Source: an uncultured Ruminococcus sp.
GTDB taxonomy: Bacteria > Bacillota > Clostridia > Monoglobales > Monoglobaceae
DNA length: 43,937 nucleotides
NCBI GenBank assembly: GCA_902797885.1
Contig: CADBUP010000055.1
Span: forward strand, 1 to 43,937
Direction of reading: 5' to 3'
The translations under genes and the position numbers were made by a program. Of the stretch, positions 18,180 through 26,284 are shown piece after piece; the stretch's first letter is position 1, and each line of letters opens with the position of its first letter. The notes beneath the pieces are model-generated. The model saw only the letters and a program-made list of their open reading frames with translations. It was not told the origin of the DNA and searched no databases.

Positions 18180-18270
18180 ATTAAAAACCTGTTACATAAA
18201 CTCATTTAATAAAATTATGTTATTCGACTCATTTTCGGCTATGGAAAATTAATTTTTTCGTTGGCATTCT

Positions 18271-18343
18271 ATGACACTTCAATCCGAGGTATTATATTCG
18301 TGTACAGAGGAGGTGCACATAATCTTATAGGAACCTCGGTACA
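18271..18343 (+). promoter_or_regulatory. Possible promoter and leader inverted repeat of the capsid operon
   Basis: A weak sigma-A-like pair, ATGACA (18271-18276), 16 bp, TATATT (18293-18298), precedes TGTACAGAGG (18301-18310), which nearly pairs with CCTCGGTACA (18334-18343). A second small palindrome, GCTTTTTAAAAAGC (18354-18367), sits just before the ribosome site. The promoter is much weaker than the others here, so a dedicated activator or alternative sigma factor is possible. Confidence 0.4.
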
Positions 18344-18382: not shown

Positions 18383-18907
18383 ATGTTTAACTTTAACACA
18401 ACCAAACGCCGCAGTGAAGCGGATATGCTTCCGGCAGACGGCGAAATGTCAAACGGCGGCTTGAAAAATATGAATCAGGCTGCAAACATTCAAGGAGGGC
18501 AGGAGCCTTATTCAATGTCAGATACCATAGGGGGTGCAAACGGCATTCCGAACGCCGATGTCAACGCAAGAATCGAAGAGCTTAACGCGCAGTGCCATGA
18601 ATTTATGCAGAAAAACCCGGATTTCGATATGAAAACAGAATTGCAGAATCCTAAGTTTGTAGAGTATGTATTTAAAAACGGAATATCAGTTGAAGATGCA
18701 TACATCCTTGTTCACCTTGATGAGATTATCAAAAATGCCGTTTCAAGCTCGATGAACCGTGCGGCGGTTCGCAGGAACAGAATTTTTGAGAACGGAACGG
18801 GCAAGAACAGTCCTGCCGTTGTCAAGAAAAACCCTAAGGATATGTCGGACAAAGAAATCGACGCAATAATCGAAAGAGTCCGCAACGGTGAAAAAATCAG
18901 TTTTTAA
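18383..18907 (+). CDS. Scaffold-like virion assembly protein, first gene of capsid operon
   Basis: A 174-residue soluble protein with GAGGAG before the ATG. Residues 60-130 are predicted helical: VNARIEELNAQCHEFMQKNP, then a region with ELQNPKFVEYVFKNGISVED and AYILVHLDEIIKNAV. The C-terminus is a short conserved-looking tail, DKEIDAIIERVRNGEKISF. A small, charged, helical protein coded directly before a major capsid gene is the standard place for a scaffolding protein, and I recall this C-terminal style in scaffold-like genes beside N4-gp56-type capsids. No catalytic motif is seen. The function is inferred from position and shape. Confidence 0.6.
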   Translation: MFNFNTTKRRSEADMLPADGEMSNGGLKNMNQAANIQGGQEPYSMSDTIGGANGIPNADVNARIEELNAQCHEFMQKNPDFDMKTELQNPKFVEYVFKNGISVEDAYILVHLDEIIKNAVSSSMNRAAVRRNRIFENGTGKNSPAVVKKNPKDMSDKEIDAIIERVRNGEKISF

Positions 18908-18977
18908 CCTACCGGTGTTCTTAACCGGCTTATACGAACTAACAACTACTAATATAAAATAAGAAAGGATTTTTAAT

Positions 18978-20219
18978 ATGAGCATAGATTACAATACTCA
19001 GACTACAACAACAAACAACGTCGGGAACAACTTAACACCCGAGATGAAAACCTATTATGACAGAGAGCTTATTCACTTTGCTTCACCGAAGCTTGTTCAC
19101 GCTCAGTTCGGACAGAAAAAGCCTATCCCGGCAGGAAACGGAAAGTCTATCGAATTCAGAAAGTTCAGCCCGCTTGAAAAGGCGCTTGTTCCGCTCAGCG
19201 AGGGCGTAACACCAAAGGGAAACGCGCTTAACGTGACAACGGTTGAATCCACGGTTGAACAGTACGGCGACTATATCACTCTTTCGGATATGCTGACTTT
19301 ATCTTCAATCGATTCGGTTATATCCGAAACACAGGCTGTTCTCGGCGATCAGGCAGGACGTACGCTCGATACCGTTATCCGCGAGAAAATCAACGCGGGT
19401 ACCAATGTTCAGTACGGTAACGGCAAGGCGGACAGAAACGTACTTGTCGGCGGTCAGACCAAATATGAAGATAACGACTATCTTTCGGTTGCCGCAGTAA
19501 AAAGAGCCGTAGCAACACTCAAACGTAACAATGCAAGCCCCTTCAAGGATGGCTGTTTCGTAGCAATCATTCATCCGGATGTTGCGAACGACCTAACCAA
19601 CGACCCCGAATGGAAGGCAGTAAAGCAGAATGTTGACCCTGATGACTGGTACAAGGGCGCTATCGGTAAGATTCACGGCGTTGTGTTCTTTGAATCAACC
19701 GAAGCGAAAATATTCCGTGCTAAGGATTTAAGAAATGCGGCTACTCTTGCCAAGGGCGATGCAAAATCACTTTCTATCGCCTCCGTCGGCGCGGACGGCG
19801 CTATTACTCTTAAAGAAGATCTTGAGCAGGCAGACGCAACAGCCCTTGTCGGCAGAAGTATTCAGATTAAAGGCTTTGACTATTCAATCAAATCAGCGAC
19901 AAAAGGTGCGGCCGGCTCAGCTAAAATAACTGTAAACGAAACTCTCGACAAAAGCATTGTTGCTGACGACATCATTTATCCTGCCGGCGCCGGTAAGGAC
20001 GGCAGAGATATTTATTCAACTCTGTTTATCGGTCAGAACGCATACGGTGTAACAAATATTACCGGCGGCGGCCTTGAAACTATTCTCAAGCAGAAGGGAA
20101 GCGCCGGAACAGGCGACCCGCTCGATCAGAGAAGTACTGTGGGCTGGAAGGCAACTCAGACCGCTGAGATTCTTTCACCCGAGTTTATGGTTCGCGTTGA
20201 AACAACCTGCAGCTATTAA
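18978..20219 (+). CDS. N4-gp56-family major capsid protein
   Basis: A 413-residue major capsid-like protein of the N4 gp56 family (HK97-type fold expected). The N-terminal part has TPEMKTYYDRELIHFASPKLVHAQFG, then PIPAGNGKSIEFRKFSPLEKA, LSEGVTPKGNALNVTTVEST and VEQYGDYITLSDML, all typical of this family. FVAIIHPDVANDLTND marks the middle, and an inserted domain of about 270-350 is followed by FIGQNAYGVTNITG. The end is EFMVRVETTCSY. It has AAAGGA at 18963. The frame is intact. A strong hairpin follows the stop. No portal or terminase gene accompanies it. Confidence 0.9.
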   Translation: MSIDYNTQTTTTNNVGNNLTPEMKTYYDRELIHFASPKLVHAQFGQKKPIPAGNGKSIEFRKFSPLEKALVPLSEGVTPKGNALNVTTVESTVEQYGDYITLSDMLTLSSIDSVISETQAVLGDQAGRTLDTVIREKINAGTNVQYGNGKADRNVLVGGQTKYEDNDYLSVAAVKRAVATLKRNNASPFKDGCFVAIIHPDVANDLTNDPEWKAVKQNVDPDDWYKGAIGKIHGVVFFESTEAKIFRAKDLRNAATLAKGDAKSLSIASVGADGAITLKEDLEQADATALVGRSIQIKGFDYSIKSATKGAAGSAKITVNETLDKSIVADDIIYPAGAGKDGRDIYSTLFIGQNAYGVTNITGGGLETILKQKGSAGTGDPLDQRSTVGWKATQTAEILSPEFMVRVETTCSY

Positions 20220-20247
20220 TTCATAGTTATCAATCATATTAGGCATA

Positions 20248-20275
20248 TTAGGCGGCGGATTTCTCCGCCGTCTAA
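20248..20275 (+). promoter_or_regulatory. Hairpin after the capsid gene
   Basis: TTAGGCGGCGGA pairs with TCCGCCGTCTAA (12 bp, one G-U) around a TTTC loop, 28 bases after the capsid stop codon. No U-run follows, so it is not a full terminator. It may protect the 3' end of the upstream mRNA or reduce read-through, giving more capsid than downstream products. Confidence 0.65.
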
Positions 20276-20301
20276 GGCAAAAGGAAAGGAGATTTTATAT
20301 T

Positions 20302-20550
20302 ATGACTAAGGCAACAACAAAACAAAATACCGCCGCTTTGGAAAAGTTTTATGAAGAGCCGGTACCGGTTATGCTGATTAAGGATAACGCAAAGTACAAG
20401 GATGACGTTACCGTTACTGTAAACGGCGTCAACTATCAGATACAGAGAGGAGTTCAGGTTTCGGTTCCGCGCAAGGTTGCACTTGTGCTCGAACGCAGCC
20501 ATCTGCAGGAGCTTGACGCTCAGGCATATATGGACAGCCTGAAAGGATAA
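20302..20550 (+). CDS. Small virion-associated-like protein
   Basis: An 82-residue protein with AAAGGAG upstream. It reads as a short, mostly beta protein: EEPVPVMLIKDNAKYKDDVT, then VTVNGVNYQIQRGVQVSVPR and a C-terminal helix ALVLERSHLQELDAQAYM. I recall similar short genes straight after N4-gp56-type capsid genes in Firmicutes phages, but their role is not established. Decoration or structural accessory are possibilities. The gene ends two bases before the next start, so they are coupled. Confidence 0.6.
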   Translation: MTKATTKQNTAALEKFYEEPVPVMLIKDNAKYKDDVTVTVNGVNYQIQRGVQVSVPRKVALVLERSHLQELDAQAYMDSLKG

Positions 20551-20552
20551 TC

Positions 20553-21335
20553 ATGGAAGTTATGAGGGCTATTGAAAGCGCCGATGCCCTCTGTCCGAAT
20601 CATTACACCATTGAAGAAAAGCTTATGTGGTGCGATGAAGTTACGGCAGAGATTCGGCGAAGTGTTATCAAGGTGTATGATATGATTCAAACTGAAATAG
20701 ATAATCACGGAGAGCTTCTCTTACCTGATGATTTTCCGTTTGAAAGAATCGAGACGGTTTATGTCGGAAATCAAAGAATGGACAAGCAGGATTTTCGGTC
20801 GTTTATTGACAAAACGGAAAGCGGTATTTCGTATTCTCAGCCTAAAAAGCTCAAGATAGTGTATCTTAAGATGCCCGAAAAAATACGGTATCCCGATATC
20901 CGCGGTGAGTTCAACACGGGCGGTGACACAATCGAAATTGAACTTGCACCCTTCCGCGAGGGAGATAAAATTGAAATTGCGGCGCTTGATGACCTTAAAA
21001 GTGAACCTGACTGGGATAATGCTGAGTCTGCATATGTTGTGGAGGTACAGCTTGATAAAATTATTCTGAATTCCGACGCGGCTCCGCCGCAAACCGCTGC
21101 GAAGCTTGCAATCCGAAGGGTAATCGATGATTTGACAGAGATTGACGAGGCGCCCTATGACGGAATGTATATAGAATACATATTGGCAAAGATGGCAATG
21201 TATCAGCACGATTATGTGGGTTATAACGCTCATATGACACAGTATAACTGCCTTTTTGAAAATATGCGGCGAGAATATAAAACACGCAGTCCGCTGACAA
21301 CACTGGCTTGCTTCAGGAACTTCAGTATTGTCTGA
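20553..21335 (+). CDS. Head-tail adaptor-like protein
   Basis: A 260-residue soluble protein with AAAGGA six bases before the ATG. The N-terminal segment HYTIEEKLMWCDEVTAEIRR is helical. A beta-rich middle (IETVYVGNQRMD, KLKIVYLKMPEKIRY, GGDTIEIELAPFREGD) follows, then a helical C-terminus with AAKLAIRRVIDDLTE and EYILAKMAMYQHDYVGY. This helical-beta-helical plan and the place between capsid and nozzle-like genes resemble podovirus adaptor (gp11-like) proteins. No catalytic motif is seen. The assignment is by architecture and position only. Confidence 0.5.
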   Translation: MEVMRAIESADALCPNHYTIEEKLMWCDEVTAEIRRSVIKVYDMIQTEIDNHGELLLPDDFPFERIETVYVGNQRMDKQDFRSFIDKTESGISYSQPKKLKIVYLKMPEKIRYPDIRGEFNTGGDTIEIELAPFREGDKIEIAALDDLKSEPDWDNAESAYVVEVQLDKIILNSDAAPPQTAAKLAIRRVIDDLTEIDEAPYDGMYIEYILAKMAMYQHDYVGYNAHMTQYNCLFENMRREYKTRSPLTTLACFRNFSIV

Positions 21336-21358
21336 CAGACGGCAGGGAGGATTGAGAA

Positions 21359-23020
21359 ATGATTTTACCTAAATTAGATGTAAAAGAGAGCAACAGAGTT
21401 CAAATCAAGGTATTCGGCGGACTCGACAGACGCGATAAAATTTCCGATATGTCGCTTACGGATATGACAAATATGTCATCTTCCGCTATGCCGGCGCTGA
21501 CGCCGAGAGAAGGAAGGCGTAAGATTGCGGATGTTCCGAACGCCTCCGAAATATGCGCTCCGGAATATAGTGACGGCGACTTAAACTCCTTCACCGGTGT
21601 AATAGGCACAAAATTCTATTACAACGGAACGCAAATAGGCGGAACTCTTACCGCCTCAGAAAAATCGATTGCGGATTTTAACGGAAAAATTTGCATTTTC
21701 CCGGATAAGAAGTTCTATGATTATATTCCCGATTCCAAAACGGGAAATATTGCAACAGAGCTGACGTCAATGGAGAAATCGTCTAAATTTAACAACGCCT
21801 CATTTTATTCGTCATATGATGAGGTAAGCGGAAGCTATTCCGCATATATCAGCGGTGCAGGAAGCTTTGACCTATCGTTTGTGCCCGGGGACAGCGTGGT
21901 TATCGAGGGGTGTACAACTGTGCATAACAACACAAAACATCTGCAAAGCAGAAAGGATACTGCGGCTACTGATGACATTATAAGCGCGGTCGTTGACAAG
22001 GTGTCAAGCAACAGGCTTGACCTCTTGCTTTACAACAAAAACGGAGGGAGGGCGTTGTTTAAAAACACAACCGAAGGCGGATATATTACTGTCAAATCGG
22101 CGATACCCGATATGAACCATATTTGTGTTCATAACAATCGTCTGTGGGGAACCGCTGTATCGGGCGAATATATATACGCCTCAAAGCTCGGTGACTGTAC
22201 AAACTTTAACTCCTTCCAAGGACTCAATGATGACAGCTGGTACAGCTATATAGCAACCGGAGGCGGATTCACGGGAATCTGCAGCTATCGTACCGCGGTG
22301 GTGGCGTTTAAACGTGGGTATATTCATCATATTTACGGCGATGCGCCGGTTAATTTCTCAATTCCCAAGCAAACCTTCGGCGGATGTATCGATGGCAAAA
22401 GCATTTGTGAAATAGGCGGGGTGTTGTATTATCTGGCACAGGATGGATTTCGCGCTTACAGCGGCGGCGAGCCGTATGATATTTCGCCGCAGCTCAAATT
22501 CAATTATTCCTCCTGCGCGGCGGGAACCGATGGAAAACATTATTATGCTGCCGCTAAACGCGATAACGGCACCTTTGATGTGCTGGTTTACACTCCTGAA
22601 TCCGATATATGGGTGCGCGAGGACGATACACCGTTTTCGGGTTTCTGTACATTTAACGGAAGCGTGTATGGTATTGCTGACGGAAAGATGTGGAAGATGA
22701 ACGGCGGCTCAGAGCCTTTTGAGTGGTGCTTTGTATCAAAAAGGTTTACCTATGACGCGATTGATTATAAAGGTGTTTCATGCTTATGGATTAGGATGGA
22801 TTTAAAGAACGATGCGAAGATTGAGGTTTCGGTTTCGGCGGACGGCGGAGATTTTATTTCCTGCGGAACCGTCCGCGGCGGAAGAGGATTCTCGGTCTAT
22901 CGCATCCCCGTCAGATTCCGCAAGTGCGACAGCTTCCGCATTATGCTGTTGGGTTCGGGCGGCGCGGTTATACATGATATTGAAATTACAAGTCACAACG
23001 GAGGGAGAATTTATGGATAA
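21359..23020 (+). CDS. Tail nozzle/stabilisation-like beta-propeller protein
   Basis: A 553-residue protein with GGGAGG before the ATG. The N-terminus VFGGLDRRDKISDMSLTDMT followed by a PALTPREGRRK segment resembles the opening of podovirus nozzle and stabilisation proteins (T7 gp12 or P22 gp10 style). The body is a series of beta blades with repeats such as LWGTAVSGEYIYASKLGD, FTGICSYRTAVVAFKRGYIH, GGVLYYLAQDGFRAYSGGEP and YVYTPES-like strands. The last 100 residues look like a separate beta domain. No signal peptide or enzyme motif is present. Its last eight bases overlap the next gene. In a phage it would sit at the tail tip; without a portal here its role is unclear. Confidence 0.6.
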   Translation: MILPKLDVKESNRVQIKVFGGLDRRDKISDMSLTDMTNMSSSAMPALTPREGRRKIADVPNASEICAPEYSDGDLNSFTGVIGTKFYYNGTQIGGTLTASEKSIADFNGKICIFPDKKFYDYIPDSKTGNIATELTSMEKSSKFNNASFYSSYDEVSGSYSAYISGAGSFDLSFVPGDSVVIEGCTTVHNNTKHLQSRKDTAATDDIISAVVDKVSSNRLDLLLYNKNGGRALFKNTTEGGYITVKSAIPDMNHICVHNNRLWGTAVSGEYIYASKLGDCTNFNSFQGLNDDSWYSYIATGGGFTGICSYRTAVVAFKRGYIHHIYGDAPVNFSIPKQTFGGCIDGKSICEIGGVLYYLAQDGFRAYSGGEPYDISPQLKFNYSSCAAGTDGKHYYAAAKRDNGTFDVLVYTPESDIWVREDDTPFSGFCTFNGSVYGIADGKMWKMNGGSEPFEWCFVSKRFTYDAIDYKGVSCLWIRMDLKNDAKIEVSVSADGGDFISCGTVRGGRGFSVYRIPVRFRKCDSFRIMLLGSGGAVIHDIEITSHNGGRIYG

Positions 23021-24239
23021 CATTAAAAACAAAAAAGAAAAGCAACAAAATTCCGTTCCCGACGGGCAGGTCGGAATAAGAACGACGCTAAACAAAATGG
23101 GTTTTTCGGATGACAAAATAAGTTATAACGAAAAGACGGGAACGGTCACCCTTAACGGGAGAAATTTTATGAAGCCTTCTTATATGGACGAGGCGGCAGG
23201 CAGGTCATATGCCCCGAAGTCCGAAATTCAGCGGAGTGTGGTTGATTTTTACAAGAACTCATCCGACCCGGTTGTAAGGGTCAGCGATGCTTACGCCGCA
23301 AAGGCGGGTGATTTAGGCTTAACGGCAGATTCGCTCAGCTATGGTAACGGTGCGGTTATGATTGGCGGAGTTCCGCTTAACACTCTATATATAGATGATT
23401 ACGGAAAGGCATGGGCGCGGCAAAGCGATGTGGATGAACTGACATCGAGCCTTGCGGAGCGGACAGGCGTAAAATCGCCGAATTCAGTGCTGAAAAAATA
23501 CAATGAACAGTATATGTCGAATATATGGAATAAGCTTAATGATATTGCAAACCGAAAGGATTTTTCATATAATCCCGACGATGACCCCGTGTATGCGGCA
23601 TATAAACAAAAGTATCTGACCGAGGGCGACCGGGCAAGCAAGAATGCCATGGCAAATTACTCGGCACTTACCGGCGGTTATACCAATTCGGCGGCGGTCA
23701 CCGCCGGAGCGCAGGCAAATCAGTATTACGCCAAAAAGCTTTCGGACGTGATTCCGCAGCTTGCATCGGATGCTTATGACCGCTATAGCGACAAATACCA
23801 AACTGATTTAAACCTTGTCACTCAGATGCTTGACGCTTATGATAGTGCGTATCAAAAGGCGTCCGCCGCGAATAATCAGACAAGGAAGAATGTTAACACA
23901 TCGAGTTCATCGGTCGTTCAGCGCGATAAAGATGCGTTTGACAGGGAACAAACCGCAAATAAGTCTGACTGGGAAAATTTATTCAACAAGCAGAAGTATG
24001 ACAGCGGGCAGCGCGACAGCTTTTGGAATGAAATCTTTAACACGCAAAAGCGATCTGAAAATAATCTTGAGAACAACGCTCGTGTTTTAAATAACGAGCA
24101 GCAAAAGATTTATCTGGAATATTACAGAAGTCTTCTTGACGCAGAGCTTGAGGAAAGTCAAGCGAACGCTGTCAAAAACAGGTCGAATGCGGAAAAATCC
24201 ATAGCCGAAGCGAGAGCAAGATACGGATACGGGTACTGA
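23013..24239 (+). CDS. Internal/ejection-like virion protein with coiled C-terminus
   Basis: The start is the ATG at 23013 after GGAGGG, overlapping the previous stop by eight bases; the frame is open further upstream only by chance. The 408 residues have three parts. Residues 20-135 hold two related small beta units (GFSDDKISYNEKTGTVTLNG and LGLTADSLSYGNGAVMIGG). Residues 180-260 carry FSYNPDDDPVYAAYKQKY, ALTGGYTNS and VIPQLASDAYDRYSDKY, a pattern I recall in many gut phage structural proteins. Residues 280-400 are long charged helices, likely coiled coil, ending RARYGYGY. It is the last gene before the operon terminator. Confidence 0.6.
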   Translation: MDNIKNKKEKQQNSVPDGQVGIRTTLNKMGFSDDKISYNEKTGTVTLNGRNFMKPSYMDEAAGRSYAPKSEIQRSVVDFYKNSSDPVVRVSDAYAAKAGDLGLTADSLSYGNGAVMIGGVPLNTLYIDDYGKAWARQSDVDELTSSLAERTGVKSPNSVLKKYNEQYMSNIWNKLNDIANRKDFSYNPDDDPVYAAYKQKYLTEGDRASKNAMANYSALTGGYTNSAAVTAGAQANQYYAKKLSDVIPQLASDAYDRYSDKYQTDLNLVTQMLDAYDSAYQKASAANNQTRKNVNTSSSSVVQRDKDAFDREQTANKSDWENLFNKQKYDSGQRDSFWNEIFNTQKRSENNLENNARVLNNEQQKIYLEYYRSLLDAELEESQANAVKNRSNAEKSIAEARARYGYGY

Positions 24240-24266: not shown

Positions 24267-24298
24267 AAAAATCGAGGGTGAAAATCCTCGATTTTTTT
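24267..24298 (+). terminator. Terminator of the capsid operon
   Basis: AAAAATCGAGG pairs with CCTCGATTTTT and runs into a T7 tract. It closes the six-gene operon 28 bases after its last stop and separates it from the exporter gene. Confidence 0.9.
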
Positions 24299-24499: not shown

Positions 24500-25822
24500 A
24501 TGTCAAAAATAAGAAAACAGCATATGGCTGTTAACTGGCATGAAATTATTGTGTCGGACGATAGCGTCCCCGCTGTTGAAGCAACCCTTAAAGAGAAGGC
24601 AACTCTTGTCGGAAGGCTTGGTATAATGATGCTCTCTGTCGGTACCGGAGCGTGGCGCGTCAGAAATTCAATGAACAGCATAGCCAGAAGCCTGGGGCTT
24701 TCGTGTTCAGCCGACATCGGCTTGCTTTCCATCACTTGGACGTGCGTCGAAGGAGACGATACATATACTCAATCTTTTTCGCTTCCGACCTCCGGCGTCA
24801 ATACGGATAGGCTGATGGAGCTTGAATTGTTCTTGAAAGATTTTTCGAAACTTGCCAATGTATATTCGGTTGATCATTTTCACAAAATTCTTGACCGAAT
24901 ACAGAGCAAGCCGGCAAACTACAACGCGATACAACAGGGGCTTGCGGCCGCTATCGCGTGCGGAGCGTTTACCTTCCTTCTGGGCGGCGGAATTGTTGAA
25001 ATGATTTGTGCGTTCTTCGGAGCGGGAGCCGGGAACTTTGTCAGAAATAAAATGATTGGCAGGAAACTTTCTCTGTTTGCCAATGTAGGCGTCAGCGTTG
25101 CTGTGGCGTGTATAGTATATGTTTTGGCAATTTTGTTGTCACAGACATTTTTAAATGTCTCCGAGGTTCATCAGGCCGGATATATTTGTGCAATGCTTTT
25201 TGTTATACCGGGATTCCCGCTGATTACCGGCGGAATAGATATGTCAAAGCTTGATATGCGCTCGGGCTTGGAGCGGACTATGTACGCTTTGTTGATTATT
25301 ACCGTTGCAACTCTTACCGGTTGGGTGACCGCGATGATTTTTAAATTTCAGCCTGCGGATTTTCAGGAACTTCGGATTGAAACAGGTATGATGATTATTC
25401 TGCGCATTATTGCAAGCTTTTTCGGAGTGTATAATTTCTCAATTATGTTTAACAGTCCGAGAAAGATGGCGCTTACCGCCGGCCTCATCGGAATGATTTC
25501 AAACACGCTCAGACTTGAGCTGATTGACCTTCTGAATTTTCCGGTCGGAGTCGCGGCATTTGTCGGCGCATTCTGTGCGGGGTGTATAGCATCTATCGTA
25601 AAAAAGAAAATCGGTTTTCCGAGAATTTCGCTTACCGTACCGTCGATTGTTATTATGGTTCCCGGGTTGTTTATGTACAGGGGTATTTATAACATTGGAT
25701 TAAATGATATAGGTACGGGGTCGCTTTGGCTGACCAAAGCGATTTTAATTGTCATCGCCCTTCCTCTCGGATTGGTTGCGGCAAGACTTTGTACAGACAA
25801 AAACTTCAGACATTGTACCTGA
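24500..25822 (+). CDS. Threonine/serine exporter family protein (ThrE fusion)
   Basis: A 440-residue inner-membrane protein that joins the two ThrE modules which are split genes in many Firmicutes. Residues 35-130 form the soluble N-terminal part, with LGIMMLSVGTGAWRVRNSMN and the IGLLSITWTCVE strand. The first helix bundle follows from about 145 (LAAAIACGAFTFLLGGG, then FVIPGFPLITGGIDM, the family signature). A second membrane module begins near 270. The family exports threonine and serine in Corynebacterium; the substrate here is inferred. It has its own promoter and ends in a shared terminator with ssrA. Confidence 0.85.
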   Translation: MSKIRKQHMAVNWHEIIVSDDSVPAVEATLKEKATLVGRLGIMMLSVGTGAWRVRNSMNSIARSLGLSCSADIGLLSITWTCVEGDDTYTQSFSLPTSGVNTDRLMELELFLKDFSKLANVYSVDHFHKILDRIQSKPANYNAIQQGLAAAIACGAFTFLLGGGIVEMICAFFGAGAGNFVRNKMIGRKLSLFANVGVSVAVACIVYVLAILLSQTFLNVSEVHQAGYICAMLFVIPGFPLITGGIDMSKLDMRSGLERTMYALLIITVATLTGWVTAMIFKFQPADFQELRIETGMMIILRIIASFFGVYNFSIMFNSPRKMALTAGLIGMISNTLRLELIDLLNFPVGVAAFVGAFCAGCIASIVKKKIGFPRISLTVPSIVIMVPGLFMYRGIYNIGLNDIGTGSLWLTKAILIVIALPLGLVAARLCTDKNFRHCT

Positions 25823-25893: not shown

Positions 25894-25935
25894 GAAAATC
25901 AAAAACCGCCTGTTTTAGGCGGTTTTCTTGATTTT
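25894..25935. terminator. Shared terminator of exporter gene and ssrA
   Basis: AAAACCGCC-tgtttta-GGCGGTTTT, extended by outer AAAATCAA/TTGATTTT arms. T-rich tails on both strands let it end both convergent transcripts. Confidence 0.88.
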
Positions 25936-26284
25936 GGTGGAGATGAGGGGAATTGAACCCCTGTCCGAAGAAGCGTCCCCACAGGGCGCTACGAGCGTAG
26001 CTTGTGATTGATATTCCCGAACATCTCAGGCTCACAAGCAAGCCTGAGATGACGGTAGCTTCATAGGTTCATGGCGGGGTCAAAGCTTTCCCCGCTCACG
26101 TTCACCGCTTGGATGATACCTTGCTCTGCGGGCGCGGTAACCGCAGGAAGGCAGCTGCGTTAATTAGGCAGCGTAAGCTAAATTATTGTTAGCGTTTAAT
26201 TTTAAAAAGTTGGGTTTTTAACGCAGTACCCGCTGCGGCTCGCTCCCTGAGTCTCCGCGACCCCGTCGAAGCCTTTACATCCCC
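25935..26284 (-). ncRNA. ssrA: Transfer-messenger RNA (tmRNA)
   Basis: tmRNA rescues stalled ribosomes together with SmpB. On the minus strand the 5' end GGGGATG (26284 down) pairs with CATCTCC next to the encoded 3' CCA at 25935, and the 3' part has the T-arm GGGGAATTGAACCCC-type sequence (as read on the plus strand). The 5' domain begins GGGGATGTAAAGGCTTCGAC, a tmRNA hallmark. The tag reading frame at 26164-26193 encodes ANNNLAYAA and a TAA stop. The end AYAA differs from the commoner ALAA. Pseudoknot-like GC-rich arms fill 26040-26160. smpB lies two genes upstream on the same strand. Confidence 0.95.

Follow-up and report, generated by a model that had tools for sequence, protein, structure and literature searches.

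A capsid operon of an uncultured Monoglobaceae bacterium as the probable head-plus-short-tail unit of a dispersed gene transfer agent

To our knowledge, few gene transfer agents (GTAs) are known outside the Alphaproteobacteria, where RcGTA has a long-tailed morphology. GTAs are marked by dispersed, vertically inherited phage-derived loci and by a small terminase without a DNA-binding domain (PMC12946183). In January 2026, Borodovich et al. described FpGTA of Faecalibacterium, which is podovirus-like, is encoded in two operons and has a TerS without a DNA-binding domain (PMC12946183). TerS, TerL, portal, scaffold and capsid are specified by one 10.5-kb operon, fibre and lysis by the second, and the 40-nm particles package about 9 kb of host DNA (PMC12946183). 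In our literature search FpGTA was the only described podovirus-like GTA found, and no literature linking Monoglobus with gene transfer agents was found.

FpGTA is the closest described system to the one reported here. The DNA analysed (the window) is the whole of a 43,937-base contig (C55) in a draft MAG of the gut Clostridia family Monoglobaceae. An earlier note on the window had singled out a six-gene operon as a stand-alone capsid operon without packaging genes. We put the probability at roughly 0.8 that this operon, as judged from sequence, is the head-plus-short-tail unit of a vertically inherited Monoglobaceae GTA whose podovirus ancestor had a P22-like portal and P22-like tail parts. 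In the best reading of the genomes, the GTA would be split across four or more places on the chromosome, all governed by the same kind of promoter. The argument is built on the parts, their co-occurrence and co-inheritance, the selection acting on them, intact TerL motifs and a common promoter element; it is this promoter signal, linking the scattered parts, that points to an inherited GTA.

The six genes (Table 1) are all open, lie on one strand, are closely spaced and are followed by a hairpin and T-run, as the earlier note had described. The stretch is single copy in its genome and is flanked on both sides by host genes, including those for a GHL10+SLH protein, an exporter and tmRNA, in keeping with the note's placing of the unit outside any prophage. 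The tmRNA gene is a common phage integration site; here it lies at 25935-26284 on the minus strand, 1.7 kb to the right of the operon, and no sign of integration was seen. The family of P0001 is also that of the scaffold-position gene in a phage contig, L041, whose product has an additional weak match to the head scaffolding family phrog_2303. The assignment of P0002 as an N4-gp56-type capsid protein was borne out by 251 bits against NCBIfam TIGR04387 (cut-off 60) and by a match of 2e-78 to phrog_1357, a major head protein family. An insertion at about residues 250-336 of P0002 (window 19720-19990) is present in most Monoglobaceae and missing from genus g3 and L041. P0003 is kept downstream of the capsid gene in relatives and in phage-like loci, and both P0003 and P0004 match phage families of unknown function. 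The AlphaFold model of P0005 (pLDDT 87) matched the tail hub/nozzle proteins P22 gp10, Sf6 gp8 and T7 gp12; by this predicted structure P0005 is a short-tail hub/nozzle protein, in agreement with the nozzle-like label it had been given. For P0006 no sequence family was found. Its model (pLDDT 72) shows a pair of similar domains at the N-terminus plus a long helical tail, and the best matches of this model are uncharacterised podovirus proteins; the ejection role that had been proposed for P0006 is no more than putative. Searches of the P0004 and P0006 sequences against solved structures gave no convincing match.

Table 1. Features of the capsid operon and its borders in the 43,937-base window
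Feature	Position	Strand	Basis
Putative late-promoter element common to the system's units	18262..18295	+	direct repeats TGGCA-N5-TGACAC, 12 bp, TATTAT (-10-like)
P0001, scaffold-like, 174 aa	18383..18907	+	phrog_13908 5e-18; precedes capsid gene
P0002, N4-gp56-type major capsid protein, 413 aa	18978..20219	+	TIGR04387, phrog_1357
P0003, small structural-type protein, 82 aa	20302..20550	+	phrog_15239 2e-21
P0004, head-tail adaptor candidate, 260 aa	20553..21335	+	phrog_12105 (two stretches) and place in podovirus-type gene order
P0005, predicted short-tail hub/nozzle, 553 aa	21359..23020	+	phrog_511 8e-45 and AlphaFold model
P0006, podovirus-type virion protein, 408-409 aa	23013..24239	+	predicted fold
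Intrinsic-terminator-like hairpin (AAATCGAGG...CCTCGATTT) and T-run	~24269-24298	+	seen directly in sequence

Terminase and portal genes are absent from the 43,937 bases of the window, as had been noted, but both are present elsewhere in the same genome. A search with portal and TerL profiles found the two together on contig C12 (44440-49196), so the descriptions "without packaging", "nozzle but no portal" and "stand-alone" had to be given up. The order on C12 is a spike/fibre-like gene (300 aa), portal, an opposed gene for a CI-type repressor (HTH plus S24 peptidase), and genes for a 65-aa Cys-rich protein, a late-regulator-like protein (c10, with weak phrog_36/248 matches), a TerS-position protein (73 aa) and TerL. 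In genera g6 and g8 this second locus adjoins host ruvX and DUF1292 genes. In TerL the Walker A, Walker B and nuclease acidic residues are all conserved, so by its motifs the packaging motor is intact. The 73-aa protein is a candidate TerS by its position and a shared C-terminal look. Across the family the TerS-position proteins have 59-94 aa and no helix-turn-helix was found in them; the equivalents in viral-contig relatives have 151-206 aa, apart from one 64-aa contig-end fragment, and the three phage-type equivalents tested gave weak HTH matches. Loss of the HTH at this position is what one would expect in a packager without selectivity. In one genus g5 genome, the portal match (G008:C39:790-2352) contains one TAA, which is either decay or an assembly error.

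In the window's own genome the units lie on separate contigs: C55, C12, C63 and C87. The split is not an assembly break, because in the one-contig genome G022 the capsid gene (1.909 Mb) and the portal gene (1.634 Mb) are about 275 kb apart. Adjacency of terminase or portal in sister strains, which the earlier note had named as evidence against its reading, was found only in other genera or families: in genus g3 portal, fibre and holin adjoin the capsid gene, the unit still lying among host genes, and in G053 TerL adjoins it. Near the loci no integrase was seen; the modules lie on separate contigs among host genes, and there is no contiguous complete prophage.

The capsid gene was found in 24 of 38 family genomes: in all those sampled from g1, g3, g5, g7 and g8, in all except one from g6, and in none from g2, g4 and g9. 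Among the matches listed, the named family members are Monoglobus, Ructibacterium gallinarum, Candidatus Roslinia and rumen MAGs; the cultured R. gallinarum DSM 107454 has the capsid operon (L167). The six-gene order recurs in the window's own genus and in most capsid-bearing relatives, as the earlier note had anticipated. Every one of the 25 capsid-positive genomes tested had portal, and so did G035, where capsid was undetected at 88% completeness; four capsid-negative genomes lacked it. TerL was found in nearly all capsid-positive genomes, being missed in G023 (72% complete) and divergent in G014. For 13 genes at the two loci dN/dS was about 0.02-0.2, with dS similar to that of host ruvX; the intact, single-copy operon is, by these ratios, under strong purifying selection, which upholds the idea of a domesticated, selected podovirus-like unit. 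When genomes were compared pairwise, the distances for capsid, portal, TerL and host GlyRS were correlated (r 0.75-0.94; none of 2000 permutations reached any of the observed values), and the main groups were largely concordant between trees.

Comparison of upstream regions gave a consensus element, TGGCA-N5-TGGCAC-N11-TATAAT, with a spacing of 11-12 bp to the -10-like box. In split-locus genomes the element precedes both the capsid operon and the spike-portal unit, and its variants co-vary per genome; G010, for example, has TGTCC-N5-TGTCAC at both loci. The direct repeats lie on either side of -35, a layout also found in some phage promoters that depend on an activator. Promoters of the lambda CII type have direct repeats TTGC-N6-TTGC, one helical turn apart and straddling -35; the arrangement here is alike, but the repeat is TGGCA-N5-TGGCAC and the candidate activator, c10, is phrog_36/248-like. 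A sigma-54 reading of the TGGCAC repeats is disfavoured, given the -10-like box at a constant 11-12 bp. In a genome-wide pattern search 49 sites were found in 19 GTA-positive genomes, against 7 for a reversed-control pattern, and no site was found in four GTA-negative genomes. Additional sites precede a Holin_SPP1 and Amidase_3 pair, fibre genes and replication-initiator-like genes, so the earlier statement that lysis and tail-fibre genes are absent fails for the genome. As a cross-check, lysis and fibre loci were retrieved by protein homology, not by the motif, and scored with a matrix trained on loci 1 and 2 only; at the first gene of eight such loci the scores were 12.8-24.9. Scores above 10 were reached by 66 of the 943 genes in the scan, all except three of them in the gene classes named here, and the next score was 9.4. 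The matrix scores of L314-L333 are no independent evidence, since these loci were retrieved via the motif itself. The three other genes, L037:17713-18705 (18.0), the one at window 24500-25822 (13.3, in its upstream region) and L331:8614-9021 (24.1), may be chance or further regulon members.

In the window's own genome the lysis cassette (XhlA-like/holin/amidase) is on C63, adjoining pta-ackA-like genes, and the fibre gene, truncated by a contig end, is on C87, adjoining dnaD/mnmE-like genes. A holin that adjoins the g3 capsid gene (profile A4) was considered as the system's lysis gene and set aside, since neither the window's own genus nor most of g6 has it; the holin of SPP1 type that follows the common promoter fits in its place. 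A fibre-like match on C16 was likewise dropped, as it sits among long-tail-type phage genes without the promoter element. Genes for self-replication or integration were not found at the two main loci. Replication-initiator-like genes lie elsewhere behind the same element, in the own genome on C14 and C29, and directly after it at L314:572-1537, L315:400-2054, L323:3082-3597 and L329:6488-7135; the types are Lin1244_N+DnaB_2, DnaD-like with DnaC/IstB-like, and small HTH proteins. Such genes are not standard GTA parts and count against the GTA reading.

Compared through the published description of FpGTA and, here, genes alone, the Monoglobaceae system is probably of the same kind. Both are podovirus-like systems of Gram-positive gut anaerobes, with a TerS lacking a DNA-binding domain, more than one operon, and holin and endolysin encoded in another operon. 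They differ in layout: the genes for capsid/tail, portal/TerL/repressor, lysis and fibre here each form a unit of their own, linked by a promoter element that all of these units share. No Faecalibacterium was among the best 80 of 125 relatives listed. Dispersed, vertically inherited loci and a small terminase without a DNA-binding domain are shared with RcGTA-type agents of Alphaproteobacteria. What sets the present system apart from these agents is its N4-gp56 capsid, its portal and nozzle of P22 type, and its combination of a CI-type repressor and a phage-like late promoter. The order TerS-TerL-portal-(scaffold position)-capsid-tail is shared with podoviruses that have N4-gp56-type capsids, Bacillus phage Page among them. 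The capsid is 38% identical to that of Page, whose TerL aligns poorly with TerL here; unlike the dispersed system, Page has a contiguous 40-kb genome and a long TerS (200 aa).

Three other readings were weighed. That the operon makes a protein shell or delivery device without packaging would fit its being a transcription unit of its own, with promoter and terminator. Portal in every capsid-positive genome tested, TerL in nearly all of them, the common promoter element at the portal unit, and conservation of portal and TerL about as strong as that of capsid leave this reading next to no probability. An encapsulin-like, packaging-free compartment was rejected on the same ground, its portal and TerL partners being present in the same genome. 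With portal and TerL at a second locus, and lysis and fibre behind the same element, an empty shell is unlikely. A recently integrated prophage, defective or active, or a satellite is very improbable: every part is phage-derived, related contiguous phage modules exist, and the relative G017 carries the separate phage-like contig L041 as well, but the operon is single copy, its order is kept across genera under purifying selection with congruent distances, and the parts lie far apart among host genes with no integrase seen near the loci.

A killing particle, PBSX-like or tailocin-like, which packages host DNA without delivering it and kills relatives by tail and lysin, would be expected to have the identical gene content. 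Fibre sequences diverge strongly between genomes, and the authors of FpGTA keep the same possibility for their particle (PMC12946183). Capsid, portal and TerL, which serve to fill heads with DNA, are nevertheless among the most conserved genes, and a killing tail alone needs none of them; we consider this reading unlikely.

For the GTA reading we infer an activator, an induction route, packaging of random host DNA and gene transfer, as follows. Relief of the CI-type repressor would open the divergent late regulator/TerS/TerL unit. The late regulator, for which c10 is a candidate on its weak phrog matches, would then activate promoters whose TGGCA-N5-TGGCAC repeats straddle -35, the dispersed targets being capsid/adaptor/nozzle in the window, spike-portal on C12, fibre on C87 and XhlA-like/holin/amidase on C63. 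Heads would assemble and TerL would load chromosomal DNA, with a low selectivity that we propose from the loss of the DNA-binding helix-turn-helix in TerS. The producer would be lysed by holin and amidase, and DNA would be delivered via fibre, spike and nozzle. The own-genome repressor (L088:11004-11702, on C12) has YCRRL where relatives have YCKKL, that is, Arg replacing the catalytic-type Lys, and lacks the AAAG (Ala-Gly) cleavage-like site of most relatives, the SMEP serine being kept; without the conserved Lys and the Ala-Gly autocleavage site, SOS induction in this genome is doubtful.

As to origin, viral contigs and other Clostridia contain contiguous TerL-portal-scaffold-capsid-P3-P5 modules, and a more distant one is found in Bacillus phage Page. 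L041 (G017:C18:1-8896), in a GTA-bearing genome, has TerS with HTH, TerL, portal, a Prp-like protease, scaffold and capsid (38% identity). L179 (capsid identity 63%) has spike-portal-scaffold-capsid-P3-P6 in a single operon without TerL, and this arrangement and that of genus g3 may be intermediates toward the split. At 12 other Clostridia loci a gene of less than 90 aa precedes TerL. Small-TerS-position loci with TerL-portal-scaffold-capsid operons are L183:1569-12030, L182, L187, L188, L194, L204-L208, L211 and L214. L183 has an 80-aa TerS-position gene in a compact 10-kb operon between ordinary host genes, with an M23-like lysin at its end; it and similar loci are, from their gene content, candidate podovirus-type GTAs. 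A larger picture is offered tentatively, as we think it somewhat doubtful: an ancient whole-regulon Monoglobaceae GTA in which the late promoter also drives replication initiators of phage type that belong to the GTA itself, packaging being coupled to induced chromosomal over-replication, and podovirus-type GTAs with HTH-less TerS widespread across Clostridia (the 12 further loci and L183).

In sum, the capsid operon would add a vertically inherited GTA lineage that spans several genera of a gut Clostridia family, with head genes in one chromosomal unit and packaging genes in another. The case is also a caution: where a window shows capsid genes but no terminase, these genes can be a piece of a dispersed system, the remaining parts of which may be found by the promoter signature. 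With Ructibacterium gallinarum DSM 107454 in culture, GTA biology can be put to the test in an anaerobe, and the system suggests a route of DNA exchange among gut commensals.
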